Source of the DNA: Sulfurimonadaceae bacterium
GTDB lineage: Bacteria > Campylobacterota > Campylobacteria > Campylobacterales > Sulfurimonadaceae
Length of the DNA stretch: 48,638 nucleotides
Direction: 5' to 3'
NCBI GenBank assembly: GCA_016744575.1
Contig: JADGEC010000011.1
Span: 1-48,638, forward strand
Shown here: positions 2 through 12,586 of the stretch, piece by piece
How the letters are laid out: each line of letters starts with the position of its first letter
How positions within the stretch are numbered: position 1 is the first letter of the stretch
Position numbers and translations under genes: made by a program
The notes under the pieces: model-generated
The model's input: only the letters and a program-made list of their open reading frames with translations
Told to the model about the DNA's origin: nothing
Database searches by the model: none

Positions 2-373
2 GTCGAGCGTTTTATACAGAACGACTATTCTGATTTTCGCATCGATATCGTCGATGGGGAGTTTGTAAGCTGTTATGGAAGAAAGGCAAGCGGCCGCGAT
101 TGGCGGACTAATGTCACGGCTGGCGGAAGCATCATCATGCGCGAGGCTGACGATGAGGTCATCGATATCGCCAAACGAGCTTCGGCGGCACTGGGCATGG
201 ATATCGCTGGAGTAGATATTCTGTACGATACGGAGCGTGAAGAGTATGTGGTACTCGAGGTCAATGGTATCCCCGCATTTGCGACACCAGAGCAAGAAGC
301 GATGGGTCTGGATTTCAATGACAAGAAGATCGAGTTGATCGTAGATATGATCGATAGAAAGACAAAAAAATAA
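2..373 (+). CDS. RimK-like ATP-grasp ligase, C-terminal part (cut by left edge)
   Basis: The reading frame is open to the left edge, so the N-terminus lies outside the window. What remains is the C-terminal half of an ATP-grasp fold: an acidic DFRIDIVDGE strand, the RDWRTNVTAGGS stretch typical of RimK-like ligases, a conserved GVDILYD strand, and the metal-binding E-x-N in LEVNGIPAF. Family members join an amino acid (often glutamate) to a carboxylate of a protein, peptide or cofactor using ATP. The substrate cannot be read from this fragment. The next gene starts about 20 bases downstream on the same strand and is also ATP-grasp, so they probably form one operon. The fold is secure; RimK itself is not established. 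Confidence 0.82.
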   Translation, partial: VERFIQNDYSDFRIDIVDGEFVSCYGRKASGRDWRTNVTAGGSIIMREADDEVIDIAKRASAALGMDIAGVDILYDTEREEYVVLEVNGIPAFATPEQEAMGLDFNDKKIELIVDMIDRKTKK

Positions 374-392
374 AAAGATCACTGGAGAGATG

Positions 393-1721
393 ATGGCAAA
401 GAAAAGATTACCGAAACTGGGACTACTTTATATGGACTATGTCCTTAGATTTTTTGATAAGAGCAACTTTAAAGGGTGGCCGGACCATATAGAGACAGTC
501 GTCTATCACTGGGGGAACGACAAGACTCGTTTCATCAATGAAGTCCGCCGCAAGAACATCGAAGTGCTTGTCGGAAACATCCCGGCGACGGCTTATGAGA
601 CCTTTAAAGAGATCTCAGCCGCACTTCCGCATGTGCGTTTCGTCCCTTCTGTAGAGACACAGTACTCAAACAAATCAAAAGAGAACGTGACACTCTTCTG
701 TGAGAAGTATGATATTGATGCGCCTAAGACTGAGATCTTCTATGATATGGCAGAGGGTTATGAGTACCTTAAAACGGCAAAATATCCGAAGATAGTGAAA
801 CGAAGTTACGGACCATCGAACTACGGTGGTTACTATGTCCATAAAGTCGATGATGCCAAAGAGGCTAAAGAGCTGTTTGATAAAGAGAAATATGTCCCGA
901 TGTACATCCAGGATGCCATCGATCTTAAAGACAGTGGGGACCTTCGCGTCATGCTCATAGGCCACAAGCCAGTCTGTGCGTTCTGGCGTTATTCAGGTAC
1001 TGGTGAGTGGATCACGAACACCTCACAGGGTGGTTCTATGAGTTATGAGAACGTCCCGATGAACGCACTTGAACTGGCAGTCAAAGCTTCCAAGGCAGCG
1101 AAGGCTGAATACTGGGCAAGTGATATCGCTATCGATGCAGAGACTGGTGAAGCGACTATCCTCGAGTGTGCGACAGCATTTGCCGCATTCCCATACATCC
1201 GTGACTGGATAGGACAGTACATCATGTGGGACCTCAGTGACGGACGTTTCAGGATGCCACATGTACCTCTCTTCTCATGGGAAGAGCTTGGTAAGATGGA
1301 TCCTTCTGTACTTCGTACGCTGCGTCACCTTTATTTCGCTAAGTATGAACCTTCAGCAGATGGTGAGTACTGGTTGGCAGATAAAGGGAACTTCGATATG
1401 GAGCTGACAGATGAGTCACATCCTGATGATGTACCAGACCCGATCGAGCCTCCTCAAAAAGAGGAAGACCTTCCGGCGATCGTCAAAGAGGCTTTCAGTG
1501 AAAGTGAGGAGATCCAGAGTGATATAGAAGAGGATGAGCGCTTTGAGTTCACTACTGTCACATTGACACAGCTTATGACACTGTACGGTATGGATGATGA
1601 GACTGCTGTGAAGATCAAAGAACTCATCGACGCAGGTGAAGTAAGTAGCATCGATACGCTTGGTGAGTACGACTTCATCACCGAGCAGCAGCTTCATCAA
1701 TGGACAGGCTCGTTCCAATAG
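393..1721 (+). CDS. ATP-grasp domain protein with C-terminal helical tail
   Basis: This 442-residue protein has an N-terminal pre-ATP-grasp part (about 1-100) and a central ATP-grasp region. The centre shows the nucleotide-binding lysine strand YPKIVKRSYGPSNYGG (about 132-146), the acidic DLRVMLIG strand (about 183-190) and the strand ATILECATA (about 254-261). At the usual metal-binding E-x-N position it reads E-C-A, so the canonical Asn is absent. Residues 330-385 are acidic and low-complexity. The last 50 residues (TLTQLMTLYGMDDETAVKIK onward) resemble a helix-hairpin-helix or ComEA-like repeat. ATG at 390 and 393 are both possible; GGAG at 384-387 fits 393 better. It lies between another ATP-grasp gene and an M14 carboxypeptidase. 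Substrate unknown. Confidence 0.8.
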   Translation: MAKKRLPKLGLLYMDYVLRFFDKSNFKGWPDHIETVVYHWGNDKTRFINEVRRKNIEVLVGNIPATAYETFKEISAALPHVRFVPSVETQYSNKSKENVTLFCEKYDIDAPKTEIFYDMAEGYEYLKTAKYPKIVKRSYGPSNYGGYYVHKVDDAKEAKELFDKEKYVPMYIQDAIDLKDSGDLRVMLIGHKPVCAFWRYSGTGEWITNTSQGGSMSYENVPMNALELAVKASKAAKAEYWASDIAIDAETGEATILECATAFAAFPYIRDWIGQYIMWDLSDGRFRMPHVPLFSWEELGKMDPSVLRTLRHLYFAKYEPSADGEYWLADKGNFDMELTDESHPDDVPDPIEPPQKEEDLPAIVKEAFSESEEIQSDIEEDERFEFTTVTLTQLMTLYGMDDETAVKIKELIDAGEVSSIDTLGEYDFITEQQLHQWTGSFQ

Positions 1722-1734
1722 TATTTTCCCCTTT

Positions 1735-1770
1735 AAGGATGGAGCTGCTTTTCGCTGCTCTCCTATCCTT
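1735..1770. other. imperfect hairpin between ATP-grasp and M14 genes
   Basis: AAGGAT (1735-1740) pairs with ATCCTT (1765-1770), and GGAG (1741-1744) with CTCC (1760-1763), leaving one bulged base and a T-rich loop. No T-run follows, so it is a poor intrinsic terminator. It may be an mRNA processing or attenuation structure. A short hydrophobic ORF (1739-1810, another frame) runs through the same bases. Confidence 0.4.
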
Positions 1771-1806
1771 ACCATCGACCATCTTCATGAGTATCCGAGG
1801 TAGATT

Positions 1807-4398
1807 TTGAGACAACAATATAGTTCCTATCAAGAGTGTGTAGATTTTTTCAGTGCAGCCCAGAAAAGCCATCCCGATCTCTTTCGGGTAGAGACGATCG
1901 GCGAGACCTGGGAAAAACGTGATATGTTTGTCGTGACCATCAGTAAAGGCATGAAAGATGCTGATGTCAAACCGGCACTTTTCTATACCGGTACCATCCA
2001 TGCTAGAGAGTGGATCGGTATCGAGCTTTCCATATCCTTTGCCCAGTATGTGCTTGACCATATCGATTATGATCCGCAGCTTATCAAGATGCTTGAACGT
2101 GCGACGTTCTATATGGTCCCTGTGGCTAATCCTGACGGTTACGAGTACTCGCGTAATCACTTCTCGTTTTGGCGAAAGAACCGACGGCAGAACGCTGATG
2201 GGACCTTTGGGGTAGATCTAAATCGTAACTTTTCAGTGGGTTTTACACCCAATAAGAACACTTCGTCCAATGTCTACTCCGGACCATCGCCTTTTAGTGA
2301 GCCGGAGACCTTGGCACTGAAGAACTATATGGAAGACCATCCCAACATCACCATAGCTCTTGATTACCACTCGCAGGGAAATGTCATCTTCCCGGCACAT
2401 AATTTCATCCATGAGGATGCACTTGATGCTACCGACCTGAACGCACTCTCTGCCAATATGGCTGAAGAGATCCGCAGGGTCTCGGGACGAGAGTACGGCA
2501 TACATATGGGAAAACCACCGACACATCTTATCTCCGGAAGTGGACGTGAGTTTTACTACTCCAAGGGAACATTGTCACTTGTCGTCGAGGTCGGTTCACG
2601 CAATATCTCTGACTATCAGGAGAACATGACCGAGAACATCAATGAGAACATCCCGGCACTGATGTATGCACTCTCTGAAGCGCCTCATTACAAATCTGAT
2701 GGTCTAGTACGTGTAGAGGCTTTTATTTCTACTGCTTCAAATGACAAAGAGATAGAATTGAGTTGGGAGTATCCTGAGGATGACTCCATCTACTTTGAGA
2801 TATACCGCTCAAGAAAACGTAAAGGTTACACGCAGAGTTCTAACCGGGTAGGGATGACTAAATCACATACTTACACTGATCGGCATCTTGATCCTGCGAC
2901 AGAGTATTACTATTTTATCCGTGCGGTGAACAAAGAGCGTTATATCAAGTCACCGTTCGCCCCTGTGGTAGGTGTCCGGACTCAACCCGCTTATAATATG
3001 TTCTCTAGCACGCTCTTCTCCCTTAAAGAGGAGATCGGTTATGTCGGTGAAAAGACACTGAAGAACAAAGATCACTTTGGGAACAACTCGATCTTTGTCG
3101 GTATCTCCGAGACAAAGGGAGAGTGTTTCGGGGTGAGCAGTTTCTCACTGGAAAGTGTTCCAGAGAACGCCGTCATCAAGTCGGCTCGTATCTCTTTTTA
3201 CCCGATGAACCGTGTCGCGGTACAGATAGAGAAGTTTGGTGAGTGGCGTGTGGGTCTGATGGATGAGAGGACTTGTGATACGCTCTTTAGCTATGATGAT
3301 GTCAAGTCGGCAAAGATCCTTGGCTATATCGGCAGTCCGACACGTGCGAACCAGCTCTCGCAAGGGGTCTGGCGTACTTATGAGTTCTCCAAGCAAGAGC
3401 GTGTACTGATGCAGGAGTCTGTGAAACGGCGAAAAGCGGTCTTTCGTATGGAGGGACCAAGAAGTCTACCTCTGGACCGCTCTTCACAGCTTATGCAGTG
3501 GGATATTGGCTATGGTGATTACAGTGGAGGCCTGAACTTCCGTCCAAAACTTGAGATCTCTTACACACTTGAAGAGGCCCATCTGGAGTTGCATTCACAG
3601 CGTGAGTTCACCATAGCCAAAAAAGGCATAGAAGAGAGTATACTCTCTGCAGGTTACGATCGTGACGGAAGTCGTGTCTATGGTTGTATGGAGTTTGATC
3701 TCACACAGATGCCAGACATGGAGATGACCGTGATCTCAGATGCTTATGTCGAGATGACGGTACAGAAGATCGACGCTCTGAAACATCTTCGTTTTCACCT
3801 GGAACTGGTCAAGATGAACAGTAGCAGGGAGAAGAGTTACGAAGATGTCAAGGGACGTGAGATCATTGAGCGTATAGGTTATGATGTCAGTGTATCAGAC
3901 CTAAAGTCAGAGCGCTCACAACGTTTCGTCTTTGATCGTCTGGCAGTCGCTGAGATGGCGCGATCGGTCCAGAAGAACGAGAAGCTTTTGTTTGTCATCT
4001 ACGCCTCTTCGGAGAAGACTTATAGTAAATTACAATCAGTAGACTGGATGGATGTGAAGCGTCAGGTCCGCCCAAAACTGATCATCGACTACATCAAAAA
4101 ACGGCAGCATGGTGTAGAGAAGGTCAATAGCCTGCATACCTCTATAGAGAACGGAATGATCCGGCTGGATTGGAAGAACCCTTCTGATGATGCCTTCCGT
4201 GGCGTGATCGTAGTGAAAAACCCTTTCCATATCCCATCTTCACCATTTGATGGGATCAAACTCTATGGGGGACCGGACAGCTATACCTATGACAACTTTG
4301 GTGATCAGCAGGTACAGAAGTACTATGCAGTCTTTACCTATGATGATGTACCCAACTACTCAGAAGCCGCCTGGGTCGGTCACAACTTGGAGTCATGA
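1807..4398 (+). CDS. M14 zinc carboxypeptidase with FN3 and beta-sandwich domains, no signal peptide
   Basis: Residues about 1-290 form an M14 metallocarboxypeptidase with a complete active site: HAREW gives zinc ligands H65 and E68, DYHSQG gives H188, VDLNRNF supplies the Asn139-Arg140 pair that binds the substrate carboxylate, and VVEVGS supplies catalytic E261. It should remove C-terminal amino acids. Residues about 295-390 look like a fibronectin type III domain. About 395-590 and 595-765 are two DNRLRE/CBM96-like beta-sandwiches, and 770-863 another FN3-like domain. Such domains usually belong to exported proteins, yet there is no signal peptide. An in-frame TAG at 1801 blocks extension, and TTG 1807 has a well-spaced GAGG (1797-1800). 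Either the protein is cytoplasmic or its leader lies in another frame. The downstream gene overlaps by four bases. Confidence 0.88.
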   Translation: MRQQYSSYQECVDFFSAAQKSHPDLFRVETIGETWEKRDMFVVTISKGMKDADVKPALFYTGTIHAREWIGIELSISFAQYVLDHIDYDPQLIKMLERATFYMVPVANPDGYEYSRNHFSFWRKNRRQNADGTFGVDLNRNFSVGFTPNKNTSSNVYSGPSPFSEPETLALKNYMEDHPNITIALDYHSQGNVIFPAHNFIHEDALDATDLNALSANMAEEIRRVSGREYGIHMGKPPTHLISGSGREFYYSKGTLSLVVEVGSRNISDYQENMTENINENIPALMYALSEAPHYKSDGLVRVEAFISTASNDKEIELSWEYPEDDSIYFEIYRSRKRKGYTQSSNRVGMTKSHTYTDRHLDPATEYYYFIRAVNKERYIKSPFAPVVGVRTQPAYNMFSSTLFSLKEEIGYVGEKTLKNKDHFGNNSIFVGISETKGECFGVSSFSLESVPENAVIKSARISFYPMNRVAVQIEKFGEWRVGLMDERTCDTLFSYDDVKSAKILGYIGSPTRANQLSQGVWRTYEFSKQERVLMQESVKRRKAVFRMEGPRSLPLDRSSQLMQWDIGYGDYSGGLNFRPKLEISYTLEEAHLELHSQREFTIAKKGIEESILSAGYDRDGSRVYGCMEFDLTQMPDMEMTVISDAYVEMTVQKIDALKHLRFHLELVKMNSSREKSYEDVKGREIIERIGYDVSVSDLKSERSQRFVFDRLAVAEMARSVQKNEKLLFVIYASSEKTYSKLQSVDWMDVKRQVRPKLIIDYIKKRQHGVEKVNSLHTSIENGMIRLDWKNPSDDAFRGVIVVKNPFHIPSSPFDGIKLYGGPDSYTYDNFGDQQVQKYYAVFTYDDVPNYSEAAWVGHNLES

Positions 4399-4733
4399 TG
4401 ATAGCAGCGCTCATATTTACGATCAGTGCCCTTGTCTTTTTGGTGGCCATGTTAAAGCAGCTTTTTGAGACTAACGCTTTCTTTCGACATCTTGAGCAAG
4501 CTCACCCTGAGAAGTTCATTGAACTGGGAAGCCCAAAATGGCACATCCAGTTTGGTGATACGACTTTTCGTGAGGCGATGAAGTACATACGAAGCGGAGA
4601 GTTTGAAGCGCTTGATGATGACATCCTCTCACAACACTACCGCTCGATGCGAAATGCAGAGAGATTGGCGTATGTGGTAGCGGTAGTCGCAATAGCAGTA
4701 ACGATAGTCCAGGCGGTTCAAGACTCTATTTAA
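4395..4733 (+). CDS. UspB-like two-helix membrane protein
   Basis: This 112-residue protein has an N-terminal membrane helix (about 3-20), a middle segment of about 65 residues rich in charged and aromatic residues (HPEKFIELGSPKWH, then MKYIRSGEF), and a C-terminal helix (about 90-108). Length, two-helix layout and the YIRSGEF-type segment resemble the universal stress protein B family and its uncharacterised relatives, whose molecular role is unknown. ATG 4395 overlaps the stop of the M14 gene (ATGA), so translational coupling is likely and it belongs to that operon. Family assignment is by eye and moderate. Confidence 0.55.
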   Translation: MMIAALIFTISALVFLVAMLKQLFETNAFFRHLEQAHPEKFIELGSPKWHIQFGDTTFREAMKYIRSGEFEALDDDILSQHYRSMRNAERLAYVVAVVAIAVTIVQAVQDSI

Positions 4734-4743
4734 AGGTCGACAG

Positions 4744-5175
4744 ATGAAAACACAATGGACACTTCTTCTTATCCCGATGCTTCTTGTAAGTCTACATGCT
4801 GGTAACATCGATGAGAAAGATATTGAGAGTCAGATACTTTATAAGGGCTGTAAAGGGTTGCGTTTCAATGCAAACCCCAGGACTTATGATTATGGCATCG
4901 TCCTTGGTTTTGTCAAGGGCACAGTGGATGCGTATCGTGAACAGTTAATAGACAGTGGGGCGGAGCTTAAGAAAAAGCGTTCCGCTACAATAGCCAGTAT
5001 GACTAGGTCTGCCTGTATGGCAGGGATAAAGGACAAATCTGACAATAGGTTTTATGATGTCTTTACACGAGATGTGAAATTTCATATCAGCCAAGAGTTT
5101 GATGGTGAGGTCGCTATCTCAAAAAAAAGAGAAAGTACTGCCCCCGGTATAGAGTCTTTTTTTGAGAAGCATTAG
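4744..5175 (+). CDS. small exported protein, unknown function
   Basis: The 143-residue product starts with a clear signal peptide (KTQWTLLLIPMLLVSLHAG, cleavage after about residue 19). The mature part has two cysteines, in the KGCKGL segment and in RSACMAG, which could form a disulfide. The segment between them (YDYGIVLGFVKGTVDAYR) faintly recalls Rap1a/Tai-type periplasmic proteins with their cysteine and glycine-rich helix, but too weakly to name the family. It follows the UspB-like gene by 10 bases and is probably last in the operon beginning with the ATP-grasp genes. A convergent DUF4139 gene ends 10 bases beyond. Confidence 0.6.
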   Translation: MKTQWTLLLIPMLLVSLHAGNIDEKDIESQILYKGCKGLRFNANPRTYDYGIVLGFVKGTVDAYREQLIDSGAELKKKRSATIASMTRSACMAGIKDKSDNRFYDVFTRDVKFHISQEFDGEVAISKKRESTAPGIESFFEKH

Positions 5176-6655: not shown

Positions 6656-7159
6656 ATGATACGAAAAGTCTTTAGAAAGAACAGATCTACTAGTAAGTTT
6701 GATGCCTTTATTGAAAAATATAAGATCCCGAGAGAGTTCTTAAGCATTAACAGAAAGGCAGTCACGCGAGCACTGCTGGTAGGTATCTTTATCGCTTTTA
6801 TCCCGATGCCGATGCAGATGTTGGCAGTCTTGGCAGTAGTGCCCTTTTTTAAGTTCAACATCCCCATAGCTATCTCCATGGTCTGGTTGAGTAATCCTGT
6901 GACTATGCCCTTTATGTATTACGCAGAGTATCTGACTGGGAACTTTCTGTTGATGGCGGATGGGATAGAGACAGTCGAGATGAGTATGGCCTGGTTTCAA
7001 GACAATCTCGATGATATTTTCATACCCCTGTATGTAGGTGCGATGTTCTACTCTGTCGTAGTCTCATTCTCAGTCTTCTTCATAGCTAACCGATGTTGGA
7101 TGTCTTCTGTAAAACGAGAACAAGATGAGAAAAAGAGACGATGGTTTAGACGACGTTAA
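6656..7159 (+). CDS. DUF2062 membrane protein
   Basis: The 167-residue protein carries the DUF2062 signature: a basic N-terminus, a helix around RALLVGIFIAFIPMPMQM, a second around IAISMVWLSNPVTMPFMYY, and a third near the C-terminus (IPLYVGAMFYSVVVSFSVFF) followed by a basic tail. Members are small inner-membrane proteins of unknown function. The start ATG has no Shine-Dalgarno sequence; a TACAAT box at 6643-6648 lies so close that the mRNA may be leaderless. Confidence 0.82.
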   Translation: MIRKVFRKNRSTSKFDAFIEKYKIPREFLSINRKAVTRALLVGIFIAFIPMPMQMLAVLAVVPFFKFNIPIAISMVWLSNPVTMPFMYYAEYLTGNFLLMADGIETVEMSMAWFQDNLDDIFIPLYVGAMFYSVVVSFSVFFIANRCWMSSVKREQDEKKRRWFRRR

Positions 7160-7209
7160 ACACCTCTTTCACTCTAAGACCCATCTGTATTGACTAAACA
7201 GTACGGTCT

Positions 7210-7662
7210 CTAAAACTCTTTCATCGCACGTTCGATATCGCGTTTCATATCTTTCTCTTTGAGATCATGACGCTTATCATGCTGCTTTTTACCTTTAGCA
7301 AGACCTATCTGGACCTTGACGAAGTTCTTGCGGTTGAAATAAAGCGATAAGGGAACGACCGTCAGGCCATCTTTTTCGACAGCGATTCGAAGCTTCTCTA
7401 TCTCTTTACGTTTTAACAGCAGTTTACGGCTTCCCCGCTCTTCATGCCCGTAGTAGTGATGCGTAGTGCTCAACAGGCCGATATGTGCGTTGAACAAAAA
7501 GGCTTCGTCTTGTACAAAACGGACAAAACTGTCTTTAAGATTGACCCGTCCGGCACGTATGGATTTGACTTCACTACCTTGCAGTACCAGACCCGCCTCA
7601 AACTTCTCAAGGATGGCAAAGTCATGATAGGCTTTTTTATTTTTGGCAATTGTCTCACCCAT
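7210..7662 (-). CDS. smpB: SsrA-binding protein SmpB
   Basis: The 150-residue sequence matches SmpB throughout: [40 protein letters not shown], a central [20 protein letters not shown] segment, [20 protein letters not shown], and the basic tail [20 protein letters not shown]. It binds tmRNA and brings it to stalled ribosomes for trans-translation. The start is supported by GGGAGGG seven bases upstream. In other Campylobacterota smpB often lies next to ispE; here the same-strand ispE is 13.7 kb away with the PNAG locus between them. No tmRNA gene was seen. Confidence 0.96.
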
Positions 7663-7782
7663 TAAGATACCCTCCCATTTATATATGCTGCAATGATACT
7701 GTAATGTGCCATAATCAAGTATGTAGACACCTATAATACTATTTACTGAAGCGAACGATCATTGGATGACAAAGGTTTGAGA

Positions 7783-7933: not shown

Positions 7934-8926
7934 TTAGAAGAGTATGAGACTTCTCTCAATAAACCAGTAGGACGCAGTGATGCCAATAAGATATATGGTC
8001 GATGTCCGTATGGTGGCTTGATGTCTTGCAACGCTATTTTTCAGCACGTGTATCAGTGCCAGGACGGTAAAGATAAAGAGCAGCTGCCCCAGCTCCACAC
8101 CCAGATTAAAAAAGAGCAGGGCTAAGGCGATGTTCTCTTCGGGCAGACCGACCTCAGAGAGCGCACTGGCAAATCCCAGACCATGTAAAAGACCAAAGAT
8201 AAAGGCTAGCATCCATGGATAGGTATAGGTCCATGATCCACGTGCTTTGCCAAGTAGGAGTTCGCGTGCTAAAAAGATGATGCTTAATGCTATCATTGCC
8301 TCGATGTAGATAACGGAGAACTCTACTGCCCCAACAGCTGCCAGTCCCAAAGTGATAGAGTGTGCCACAGTAAAGGCAGTGATGGTCTGGACCAGTACTT
8401 TGAGACCTGAGACCAGTAGTAAAAGAGCCAGTACAAACAGAAGATGATCTATACCCAGTAGGATATGCTCGACACCCAGCCAGAGGTAAGCTGAAGTAGG
8501 GCCTCTGCTATCATCGGTGATCGTTATGCGTACATGAGGATCTGATGCGGTGATGAGTCTGTTCATACTGTTGCCATCACTGTCCTCAAAACTAAAGACC
8601 ACCCCTTTATCGCTCTCAAGCAGGTCAGTGACCCAGAGGCTTTGGCCATCGATCCCCTGCGCGGAACACCATAGAAGTCTTTTGGAGATAGTAAAGCGCT
8701 GCTCTTGATATGTCGAAAGGGGTAAGATGTCTTCACATACTCGGGGGAGTTCCAGTCTAAGATCGTCACTGTCAATATCTTCAGAGGGTTTTTTGAGTCT
8801 CATCTCTACAGTAAGATCACTGTTCTCTTTTAGTTCAAGATAAGAGAGTGCACTCTGATGGGCATCAGCTGAAGTCGAGAGCAGTAGTGACAGGAGAAAA
8901 AGATAGAAAAATTCCTTATAGGGCAT
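7934..8926 (-). CDS. HupE/UreJ-like membrane protein
   Basis: The 330-residue protein has a signal-like N-terminal helix ending in TSADAHQSALSYLEL, a periplasmic beta-rich region to about 150, then a multi-helix C-terminal half with HupE/UreJ-family motifs: YLWLGVEHILLGIDHLLFVL, FTVAHSITLGL, FGLLHGLGFASAL and FFNLGVELGQL. The conserved His, Asp and Glu residues in the helices are those thought to bind metal in this family (nickel/cobalt transport in HupE). Hydrogenase or urease genes are not present here. It starts two bases after the parvulin gene ends, a pairing seen in other bacteria. Confidence 0.78.
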   Translation of the reverse strand: MPYKEFFYLFLLSLLLSTSADAHQSALSYLELKENSDLTVEMRLKKPSEDIDSDDLRLELPRVCEDILPLSTYQEQRFTISKRLLWCSAQGIDGQSLWVTDLLESDKGVVFSFEDSDGNSMNRLITASDPHVRITITDDSRGPTSAYLWLGVEHILLGIDHLLFVLALLLLVSGLKVLVQTITAFTVAHSITLGLAAVGAVEFSVIYIEAMIALSIIFLARELLLGKARGSWTYTYPWMLAFIFGLLHGLGFASALSEVGLPEENIALALLFFNLGVELGQLLFIFTVLALIHVLKNSVARHQATIRTSTIYLIGITASYWFIERSLILF

Positions 8927-9935: not shown

Positions 9936-10403
9936 ATGATGGTCCTAAAAAGATATTTCAAAGTAGTAGCGACAGCAGTGTTCATACTTATGTTCACTGC
10001 CTGTGGCGGCGGTTCAAGTAGTAGTGATAAGAAAGAGGGTCCTGTTGAAGTGACGCAACAAGACTTCCAGACTTCGACCTACATCTATAAAGGAAACTTT
10101 GTTGAAGTGGCAAGTCATGCTTATAAGAGAGTCACTGATGAAAGCTTCACCCGATCTGACATGATAGTCTCGCTTCCTGGCGATGAGACATCTGAGCTCA
10201 TCACACCTTCACTCTATAATATTAGAGCTATCTCGACTGAGAATGGTCTACGGAAGATCATTGTCCAAAACCATCTAAACACGCTGGAAGTCAAGATGGT
10301 CGATAAAGAGAACGTGAACATCCTGCTCAAATCGCAAAGTTTCACCGTAGATCGCAAGATGCCACTTGATGATCTTGTCGCTGTATTGTCGGAGGAGGGA
10401 TGA
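9936..10403 (+). CDS. small lipoprotein
   Basis: The 155-residue product begins with a lipoprotein signal: basic VLKRYFK, hydrophobic VVATAVFILM, then lipobox FTAC with lipidated Cys23, followed by a Gly/Ser linker. The mature domain (about 35-155) is not recognised. The frame opens further upstream, but AGAGAGG (9926-9932) and the signal peptide fix the start at 9936 or 9939. Its TGA overlaps the ATG of the deacetylase gene, so the two are translationally coupled and may act together at the envelope. Confidence 0.72.
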   Translation: MMVLKRYFKVVATAVFILMFTACGGGSSSSDKKEGPVEVTQQDFQTSTYIYKGNFVEVASHAYKRVTDESFTRSDMIVSLPGDETSELITPSLYNIRAISTENGLRKIIVQNHLNTLEVKMVDKENVNILLKSQSFTVDRKMPLDDLVAVLSEEG

Positions 10404-12586
10404 TGAAAAAGTTATTAAGCACCATATTCGTATTAGCCATAAGTGCAGACTTCCTCCTGGCCGCGACTATTCAGACAGCGAAAGCAAGTTATGCAAATGG
10501 GGAGCCCATCGTCGTAGAAGTATCTGGTATTCCTACTCCTACGAACTGTGATCCAGTCAACCCGGCAACGGGTAATGATTGTAACTGGGTCGGGCTTTTT
10601 GGTGCTTATGATGAGAGTCAAGCACAAAATCTGTTAGCATATCAATATATCTCGACGACTCCAAGTGATAGTCTAACCTTTACCGGACTCGATGATGCGA
10701 TGGAGTATGAAGCGAGGCTTTTTTTCAATAATGATTATGTGGAACAGGGTTTCTACAACTTCCCAGTCATTTCTACAGAGCCGGAGATCGAAGTCAAGAC
10801 GATCAAAGAACAGTATGAGGTCAATGAGCCGATAACGGTCTCTGTATCGGGCCTGCCTGGTAACAGTGATGATTGGCTGGGTCTTTTCTATGCTTTTGAT
10901 GAGAGTCAGTCACAGCATCTGCTTCAGAAGATCGAGACTGGTGGTAAAAAAGATGGGAACTTCACTTTTTCTGCTGGTCTGAACGAAGCGCACTTCTTTG
11001 AGGTGAGGGCTTTTTCCAAAGGTACTTTCAACGAAGAGGACTATTACCCTTTTGAAGTGATCACTGCGGTACATCCGGTGACAGCATGTGATGTCCTACA
11101 AAACCCTAGTTTTGAGACGGACACTAATGCCTGGACAGTCTATGGGACCAACAGTCTCATCAATGGCGGATACAATAGTACCAAAGCGTTAAGCATCAAA
11201 AATGGTGGTCTTGATCAGTTGTCACAAGAGATCACGGCTGTAGATACCTATCAGTTCAATGGTCACTATAAGACGGTAGGCAAGACTGATGGTATCTGGC
11301 TGGGCATGGTCTTTTATGACAGCGACAAAGAACTTATCTTGGAAAGATCCTTTTTTCTGAACGATGTAGATACCTATACGCCATTCATCTTGAATGCGAC
11401 GACTACAGCAGAGACAAAATATATCGAGACATGGGTATGGTCTTCGTCTGAGCAGAACAGCGGGACTCTTATACTTGATGAACTGCACCTAAGTAGTTCG
11501 AGTTGTTATACCCATACTGTAGCGTCCTCACTACCGCCAGAAGGTCTAAGTGTCGATGAAGTACCGCAGTTCGTCGTCTTAGGTTTTGATGATAATACAC
11601 AAGCTGATGGGATCGATTGGGTCATCGATCTTTTTAATACAAAGAGCAATAGTGATGGGTCTGATGCACGGGTGAGTTTCTATCTCAATACCTCTGGCCT
11701 TCATGCGGATGATGCTGATGGAGCCGCTCTTTTAGCATCCATGCAGAGACTAAAAAATACGACACATGAGATGGGAAATCATACAGATAACCATCTAAGG
11801 TATCTCTATCAAGGTAATGAAGAGGTGTTTTTTCAGACGCTTAGTACACTTGGTCATGAGACTTGGGACGAACGAATACAGGCAGCCAGCACTGATCTCA
11901 TCGGGTTAGTAGGACTGGTACAAAACGATATCCAGGGCTTTAGAGCTCCTTATCTACGCTATAACGCCGAGTCTATGAACGTCATCAAAGAGAAAGGCTT
12001 TCTTTATGACTGTTCCATAGAAGAGGGATATGCACCTGAGTTTGATGGTACGAACTTTAGATGGCCTTATGAACTAGATGAAGGCTCTCCGGGTCATGAT
12101 GAGAGTTGGTATGGAAATGGTAATAATGCTCAAAGAGTAGATATCAAGACGACTCAAGGATTATGGGAGCTTCCCAATTATGTGCTTATGGTCCCTAAAG
12201 ATAGTGAGACAAGTGCTTACGGTATCACAACAGGGTTTTGGAATAGATTGTTGACCAATATGCCTTATCTCGAAGACCATAAAGTGACAGGACTCGATTA
12301 TAACCTTTGGACGATCGGTAAGATCAATAAAGCGGAGATGCTTGGACTCTTGAAATATAACCTGGACCTGAGACTTTCTGGAAACAGAGCGCCATTCATG
12401 TTTGGTACACATTCACAATATTATACGCAGGCATGGGCAGATGAGAACGTTCCAAATGCGACTTTAGTAGAGATGAAAGAAGCGATCAGTTCATTTGTGG
12501 ACTATGCTCTTTCAAAAGAAGTAGTCCGTATGAGTACGGGAGTCGACATCATCGAGTGGTGTAAAGATCCGCAACCGTTACCATAA
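10403..12586 (+). CDS. exported NodB-type polysaccharide deacetylase with N-terminal beta domains
   Basis: The protein has a signal peptide (KKLLSTIFVLAISADFLLAA) and two similar domains of about 100 residues (about 22-125 and 128-222), sharing VSGxP, W(V/L)GLF and (A/Y)xDESQ(A/S)Q motifs. A CBM-like beta-sandwich (about 232-365, beginning NPSFETDTNAW) follows, then a carbohydrate esterase 4 domain: GFDDN (D397, D398), HTDNH (H461, H465, metal) and GFRAPY (R515). It likely removes acetyl groups from an extracellular polysaccharide. GGAGGAGGG (10391-10399) is a strong ribosome site. Placed upstream of pgaA, it would be a second deacetylase beside PgaB. Which polymer it acts on is inference. 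Confidence 0.85.
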   Translation: MKKLLSTIFVLAISADFLLAATIQTAKASYANGEPIVVEVSGIPTPTNCDPVNPATGNDCNWVGLFGAYDESQAQNLLAYQYISTTPSDSLTFTGLDDAMEYEARLFFNNDYVEQGFYNFPVISTEPEIEVKTIKEQYEVNEPITVSVSGLPGNSDDWLGLFYAFDESQSQHLLQKIETGGKKDGNFTFSAGLNEAHFFEVRAFSKGTFNEEDYYPFEVITAVHPVTACDVLQNPSFETDTNAWTVYGTNSLINGGYNSTKALSIKNGGLDQLSQEITAVDTYQFNGHYKTVGKTDGIWLGMVFYDSDKELILERSFFLNDVDTYTPFILNATTTAETKYIETWVWSSSEQNSGTLILDELHLSSSSCYTHTVASSLPPEGLSVDEVPQFVVLGFDDNTQADGIDWVIDLFNTKSNSDGSDARVSFYLNTSGLHADDADGAALLASMQRLKNTTHEMGNHTDNHLRYLYQGNEEVFFQTLSTLGHETWDERIQAASTDLIGLVGLVQNDIQGFRAPYLRYNAESMNVIKEKGFLYDCSIEEGYAPEFDGTNFRWPYELDEGSPGHDESWYGNGNNAQRVDIKTTQGLWELPNYVLMVPKDSETSAYGITTGFWNRLLTNMPYLEDHKVTGLDYNLWTIGKINKAEMLGLLKYNLDLRLSGNRAPFMFGTHSQYYTQAWADENVPNATLVEMKEAISSFVDYALSKEVVRMSTGVDIIEWCKDPQPLP

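Follow-up and report, generated by a model that had tools for sequence, protein, structure and literature searches.

Eukaryotes are well known to glutamylate proteins reversibly; among bacteria, to our knowledge, poly-glutamylation of a C-terminus has been described essentially just for ribosomal protein S6. The RimABK system of Pseudomonas controls poly-glutamylation with a RimK-type glutamate ligase that is encoded together with a glutamate-removing protease (PMC11957791, PMC10092738). In eukaryotes, ATP-grasp enzymes of the TTLL family write the modification, and cytosolic zinc carboxypeptidases (CCP, TMCP) erase glutamate; the LysW-LysX/ArgX-LysK pathway, in turn, combines LysX- or ArgX-type ATP-grasp ligases with an M20 hydrolase. 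Here, we describe a four-gene cassette that reaches into the start of contig JADGEC010000011.1 of a Sulfurimonadaceae bacterium (assembly GCA_016744575.1), of which the window, that is, the whole stretch of DNA analysed, is the complete contig (48,638 nucleotides; C179). The cassette encodes two predicted ATP-grasp ligases, AG1 and AG2, and two predicted carboxypeptidases of families M14 and M20. The reading we favour, to which we give a probability of roughly one in two, is that these proteins would run a cytoplasmic cycle in which glutamate is added to and removed from a protein or peptide encoded outside the cassette.

The resemblance to RimABK lies in the pairing of RimK-type ligase and protease. 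RimABK, however, works with a single ligase and an aspartic endopeptidase of retropepsin type, and its target is S6, whereas the cassette encodes a pair of ligases and a pair of zinc carboxypeptidases, and its carriers have no conserved S6 tail. Within the cassette, to which this check was confined, there is no retropepsin-like RimB, the two peptidases belonging to M14 and M20. With the eukaryotic system, the cassette shares ATP-grasp writers and predicted cytosolic zinc carboxypeptidase erasers, but its M14 protein is like CPA, CPB and CPO and not like CCP, its ligases are RimK-like and not TTLL, and there is no tubulin. LysX/ArgX-like ligases and an M20 hydrolase also link it to the LysW pathway, from which it differs in lacking LysW, LysZ, LysY and LysJ and in having an M14 enzyme. 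Among single proteins, human CPO (M14A) has the same catalytic fold and active site as the cassette M14 and the pocket arginine that is tied to acidic C-terminal specificity, but CPO is anchored by glycosylphosphatidylinositol, whereas the cassette M14 is predicted to be cytosolic and carries additional FN3 and DNRLRE-like domains. Carboxypeptidase G2 (CPG2), which acts on folates, is the best solved relative of the cassette M20; the latter differs in being a predicted cytosolic protein tied to ligases. The single parts of the cassette are of known kinds; as far as we have checked, the open-access literature contains no description of the four-gene combination, of its mobility or of the predicted eraser.

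Composition and inheritance of the cassette

The original prediction, made from the letters of the window, was that two adjacent ATP-grasp genes followed by an M14 peptidase might form an add/remove pair for a C-terminal amino-acid tag. Profile searches bear out these gene identities (Table 1; the Pfam cut-off for the RimK domain PF08443 is 21 bits), but the M20 peptidase had been missed, and the metal site of AG2 is atypical. The AG1 frame runs open into the contig edge at the start of the window, where the gene is truncated. Positions 1-99 are identical to the end of another contig, C85, over 99 bases, and because we take this identity as an assembly overlap, C85 is placed upstream of the window. 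C85 contributes the N-terminal 208 residues of AG1 (L003:18820-19443), giving a completed protein of 299 residues, and directly upstream of AG1, with a stop/start overlap of 4 bases, it carries the M20 peptidase as a fourth core gene. The core unit is therefore M20–AG1–AG2–M14.

Among 249 genomes of the order Campylobacterales, AG2 is present in 72, M14 in 74 and AG1 in 71, with all three together in 68; the presence patterns correlate with a phi of 0.96 for AG2 and M14 and of 0.93 for each of the two pairs involving AG1. M20 is found in 73 of these genomes, 67 of them in common with AG2. Conserved co-occurrence of AG2 with M14 across Campylobacterota, which had been named beforehand as a test of the prediction, is thus strongly upheld. 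Presence is patchy, and most genomes of the window's own family are without all four genes. Where the genes are linked, the order M20–AG1–AG2–M14 is kept almost without exception across Campylobacterales, M20 lying at times, in several families, on the opposite strand. AG2 is unlinked in six genomes (G016, G126, G011, G053, G066 and G079), in which its partners AG1 and M14 are still there, and in G076 only a broken AG2 is left, AG1, M14 and M20 all being gone. M14 without AG2 is seen in G001 and G195, both less than 85% complete, and the near-complete G176 has a lone M14 in which the arginine of the specificity pocket discussed below is replaced by lysine.

A scan of named genomes yielded 347 relatives, and the loci of the best 80 of these were read. 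Among these best 80 are Sulfurimonas, Hydrogenimonas, Nitratifractor, Arcobacter-type genera and Sulfurospirillum and, outside Campylobacterota, Thiomicrorhabdus heinhorstiae, Desulfuromusa, Geopsychrobacter and one more Desulfuromonadales genome. All four genes stand together in the Thiomicrorhabdus and Desulfuromonadales carriers (in one Desulfuromusa, M14 is cut by the contig end), and wherever flanking genes were read in non-Campylobacterota carriers, the flanks of the cassette are unrelated. In Photobacterium sp. DA100, the complete cassette lies on the second large replicon, of 2.1 Mb (L169:7705-14085), with AG1, AG2 and M14 overlapping head to tail and M20 divergent; the plasmid gene table lists no features for this region. 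A phage search found no phage carrying AG2. By gene content and order, the cassette is one unit that is co-inherited and has been transferred whole into Gammaproteobacteria and Desulfuromonadales. We reject both chance and ancestry alone as explanations of the co-occurrence, since the genes are patchily distributed within a single family, the unit crosses phyla whole, and unlinked AG2 copies retain their partners.

Predicted activities of the four proteins

In the M14 protein, residues H65, E68, H188, R123, N139, R140 and E261 are invariant in all 35 aligned copies, and the alignment equates R123, N139, R140 and E261 with R127, N144, R145 and E270 of CPA. The active site is thus predicted to be intact, as originally proposed. 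At CPA position 255 lies the S1' specificity residue of this family, for which CPA has Ile, CPB Asp and CPO Arg, and we take this position to be the determinant of M14 specificity. The pocket loop of the cassette enzyme reads SGSGREF as compared to SGSSRDW in CPO, which puts R247 at the same loop position as the arginine of human CPO. This residue is Arg in 34 of the 35 aligned copies and Lys in the remaining one, and a broader pattern search of the loop gave 97 Arg, 1 Lys and three variant loops, also with Arg. As CPO cleaves off C-terminal Glu and Asp (PMC6214572), the CPO-type arginine points to acidic-residue removal by M14, for which a preference for acidic C-terminal residues is predicted. 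An orphan M14 (L170:9079-11676), with the loop GSAKD, lies at argG, a locus that houses the complete cassette in related genomes; the lysine of this M14 in place of arginine perhaps reflects decay after ligase loss.

No signal peptide is found in M14: in all 31 relatives whose N-termini were read, the protein begins M[KR]..Y.SY, and in nearly all of these the start is closely preceded by an in-frame stop or by the gene upstream. In Photobacterium sp. DA100, the M14 start overlaps the AG2 stop. A hydrophobic N-terminus is seen in none of 90 relatives in which hydrophobicity was judged, and neither a secretion signal nor a membrane anchor was seen there. Because the signal peptide is absent from all full-length relatives, M14 is predicted to be cytosolic; the earlier observation that it has no signal peptide holds, and every relative argues against secretion.

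The AlphaFold2 model of M14 (mean predicted local distance difference test score, pLDDT, 85; predicted template modelling score 0.83), on which domain borders were read by eye, consists of a catalytic domain (1-298), an FN3 domain, two DNRLRE-like beta-sandwiches, assigned by a weak NCBIfam match, and a terminal beta-sandwich. Its fold matches are CPA4, CPB, CPT and CPO, and the same group comes out on top by sequence. We therefore rejected a tubulin-deglutamylase (CCP) type for M14, the nearest relatives being CPA/CPB/CPO by sequence as well as by fold.

Translation of M14 starts at a TTG codon preceded by a GAGG ribosome site. TTG opens 56 of 92 copies of M14; among AG1 copies it opens 1 of 104 and among AG2 copies 4 of 118, the copies not being independent of one another. 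The frequency of this start suggests a deliberately low dose of M14. Together with the hairpin between AG2 and M14 (Table 1), as stable as which 13 of 200 shuffled sequences fold, it may lower M14 expression relative to that of the ligases.

In a full-length relative of AG1, the RimK domain scores 71 bits. The metal motif of AG1, E-V-N-G-I-P-A-F, is canonical, with ExN present in 102 of 103 copies, and its nearest solved relatives are RimK and ArgX. For AG2, LysX is the nearest solved sequence and ArgX, LysX and RimK are the nearest folds (AlphaFold2 model, pLDDT 72). Neither protein reaches the NCBIfam cut-off of 331 for the RimK equivalog PRK10446, AG1 scoring 55 bits and AG2 at most 20. The Asn of ExN is replaced in AG2, where the motif reads LECATAF in 109 copies and LESATAF in 2 (111 of 119, the other 8 falling outside the search pattern), and AG2 may be either a ligase of altered type or a protein that assists AG1. 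Many copies of AG2 have a helix-hairpin-helix (HHH) domain at their C-terminus (PF12836, HHH_3, 4.8e-25 in L037), and a few are without it, those of L064 and L069 ending near residue 381. The region L134:13826-15192 holds a second AG1 copy and, after it, a separate helix-hairpin-helix protein similar to the C-terminal domain of AG2, as if this part were able to work in trans.

AG1 evolves more independently than the other three proteins: its distance correlations with them are 0.47-0.54, as compared to 0.74-0.81 among AG2, M14 and M20. It is duplicated in L092, L134 and L140. In the nearest relative of the window cassette, L077, AG1 (6846-7739) has only 69% identity and a reading frame that is interrupted after 55 codons, while M20, AG2 and M14 reach 90-95% identity. 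In three loci (L053:9000-10418, L055:9619-11040 and L073, oriented 8523-8831), AG2 lies alone between the genes for elongation factor P (EF-P) and the DNA polymerase III alpha subunit, the copy in L073 being a decayed remnant. EF-P was considered as a target and set aside, this placement beside efp being seen in three Sulfurimonadaceae genomes alone, one of them decayed.

The M20 protein combines an M20 domain (77.9 bits) with an M20 dimerisation domain (63.3 bits), and its best match among solved structures in the PDB is CPG2. Because its score of 176.7 bits falls below the cut-off of 349 for the NCBIfam glutamate carboxypeptidase model PRK06133, a specificity for glutamate is only suggested.

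A proposed glutamate add/remove cycle and its alternatives

In the cycle that we favour, AG1, with its full metal site, would spend ATP on linking glutamate, or a comparable acidic residue, to the carboxylate at the C-terminus of the target, and AG2 would act as a second, successive ligase or as the partner of AG1. M14 would trim acidic residues off the free C-terminus, while M20, working on the same product, would take off a differently linked or final residue or degrade the released material. The target would be a protein or peptide outside the cassette, and its remover M14 is probably made scarcer than the ligases by the TTG start. Precedents exist for the single steps: ArgX and LysX extend the C-terminal Glu of a carrier protein by Glu or aminoadipate (PMC10433800), RimK appends Glu at the S6 C-terminus, and in the bacterial pair RimK and RimB, the protease takes away the Glu that RimK has added (PMC11957791). 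Two ligases of the RimK/ArgX/LysX type and a carboxypeptidase that is predicted to be cytosolic and to prefer acidic residues fit an add/remove cycle of this kind. A more specific version, which we put forward tentatively as less probable, is a mobile writer/eraser that would reversibly glutamylate the C-terminus or a side chain of a cytoplasmic protein, an analogue of the tubulin glutamylation code independent of RimK/RimB. The add/remove pair for a C-terminal tag, as originally suggested, is supported in part: co-inheritance and the CPO-type arginine speak for the pairing, of which a protein C-terminus is a possible target.

Several observations weigh against the cycle. The equivalent of CPA Tyr248 is not conserved in the 35-copy M14 alignment, and FN3 and DNRLRE-like domains are known mostly from secreted proteins. 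AG2 is without the Asn of ExN, so that normal ligase activity may be doubtful, and the glutamate specificity of M20 would follow from that of its best relative. The S6 tails of carriers vary, ending in QA, AE, EE, EA or KA, and because the tail differs between carriers, S6 is not favoured as the target. Finally, a small-peptide metabolite would account for the same gene content almost as well.

In such a small-molecule pathway, AG1 and AG2 would build a short acidic peptide, such as an osmolyte, a storage compound or a cofactor tail, which M20 and M14 would recycle when conditions change. We regard this pathway, the strongest of the alternatives, as possible, though on the unlikely side. It would agree with the fact that no gene for a target, carrier or precursor is found in the cassette and that many named carriers, to judge from their names, are of marine or saline genera; M20 peptidases, moreover, act on small peptides. 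Linked ATP-grasp ligases often perform successive peptide ligations (PMC4431377), and an ATP-grasp ligase is also used in N-acetylglutaminylglutamine synthesis (NCBIfam TIGR03103). On the other hand, a five-domain M14 protein of 863 residues and the HHH domain of AG2 resemble tools for macromolecules, and a linked acetyltransferase, amidotransferase and transporter are all absent. That the two peptidases break down acidic peptides as nutrients, with the ligases serving a separate purpose, appears improbable: both come from degradative families, and the strand reversals of M20 would suit such scavenging, but their near-perfect co-inheritance with two ligases, unlinked cases included, the absence of a transporter and an M14 that is predicted not to be secreted argue against it.

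Even less is to be said for an amino-group-carrier pathway like that of LysW/LysX/LysK, in which the ligases would charge a carrier protein with an amino acid at its C-terminal Glu and M20 would free the product. The proximity of AG2 to LysX by sequence and to ArgX/LysX by fold and the presence of M20 recall this pathway. Yet the LysW model TIGR01206 has no match in the window genome, control genomes being positive, which excludes the LysW pathway for this genome; no conserved small carrier gene lies nearby, LysY, LysZ and LysJ are not in the cassette, and M14 would have no role. Least probable of all is a cluster for a graspetide or other ribosomally synthesized and post-translationally modified peptide (RiPP), with the peptidases as leader proteases. 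Two neighbouring ATP-grasp genes plus proteases would fit such a cluster, but the MvdC and MvdD models score far under their cut-offs (MvdC 23.5 bits as compared to 425), carboxypeptidases are not leader proteases, no exporter is present, and no conserved precursor reading frame of at least 50 residues lies nearby; in the absence of a precursor gene, we rejected a RiPP or graspetide identity.

If the favoured cycle is correct, the cassette would constitute a second, separately built bacterial glutamylation system, or else, if it is not, a small-peptide metabolism of a new kind. In both cases, its two predicted ligases and two predicted carboxypeptidases make up a compact, mobile set that different phyla retain or lose as a whole, and it can be tested with four genes, some carriers, such as Poseidonibacter lekithochrous, Malaciobacter halophilus, Thiomicrorhabdus heinhorstiae and Photobacterium sp. 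DA100, being in culture.

Features of the window and neighbouring genes

Table 1. Cassette features and the adjoining membrane protein gene in the window
Feature	Position	Strand	Evidence
AG1 (ATP-grasp ligase 1), C-terminal 123 residues	2..373	+	RimK PF08443, 51.6 bits (cut-off 21)
AG2 (ATP-grasp ligase 2), 443 residues, RimK/LysX-like fold with C-terminal helical HHH-like domain	390..1721	+	RimK, 49.3 bits (cut-off 21)
HHH-like C-terminal domain of AG2, residues 381-443	1530..1718	+	AlphaFold2 pLDDT >80
Weak hairpin in AG2–M14 gap (1722-1806), possible attenuator	1736..1769	+	minimum free energy -20.2 kcal/mol, z -1.7
M14 carboxypeptidase, 863 residues, TTG start	1807..4398	+	PF00246, 4.7e-56
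M14 zinc motif H65-A-R-E68	1999..2010	+	invariant in 35/35
M14 third zinc ligand H188	2368..2370	+	invariant in 35/35
M14 R247, predicted specificity-pocket residue (CPA position 255)	2545..2547	+	alignment to CPA4 and CPO loop
M14 catalytic glutamate E261 (CPA E270)	2587..2589	+	invariant in 35/35
Two-helix membrane protein, translationally coupled to M14	4395..4733	+	two hydrophobic segments

The gene for the two-helix membrane protein overlaps the M14 stop with its start by 4 bases, so that the coupling noted earlier stands, but the protein is not a conserved member of the unit: relatives occur in just 5 of the 80 loci (L077, L078, L080, L085 and L096). As these are few and close, we ruled it out as a core part, and it is a lineage-specific accessory. 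The secreted protein at 4744-5175 is likewise no conserved member, and no further conserved open reading frame of at least 50 residues, that is, no fifth gene, is found near the cassette in the loci of relatives. In Sulfurimonadaceae, the cassette adjoins rimM, trmD and rplS (L003:13093-18823, L173:8984-11848), and its neighbours differ elsewhere; in the window genome, a hybrid histidine kinase separates it from these genes. Farther along the window, positions 10400-12586 encode a 728-residue protein, unrelated to the cassette, with a signal-like N-terminal stretch and a polysaccharide deacetylase domain.

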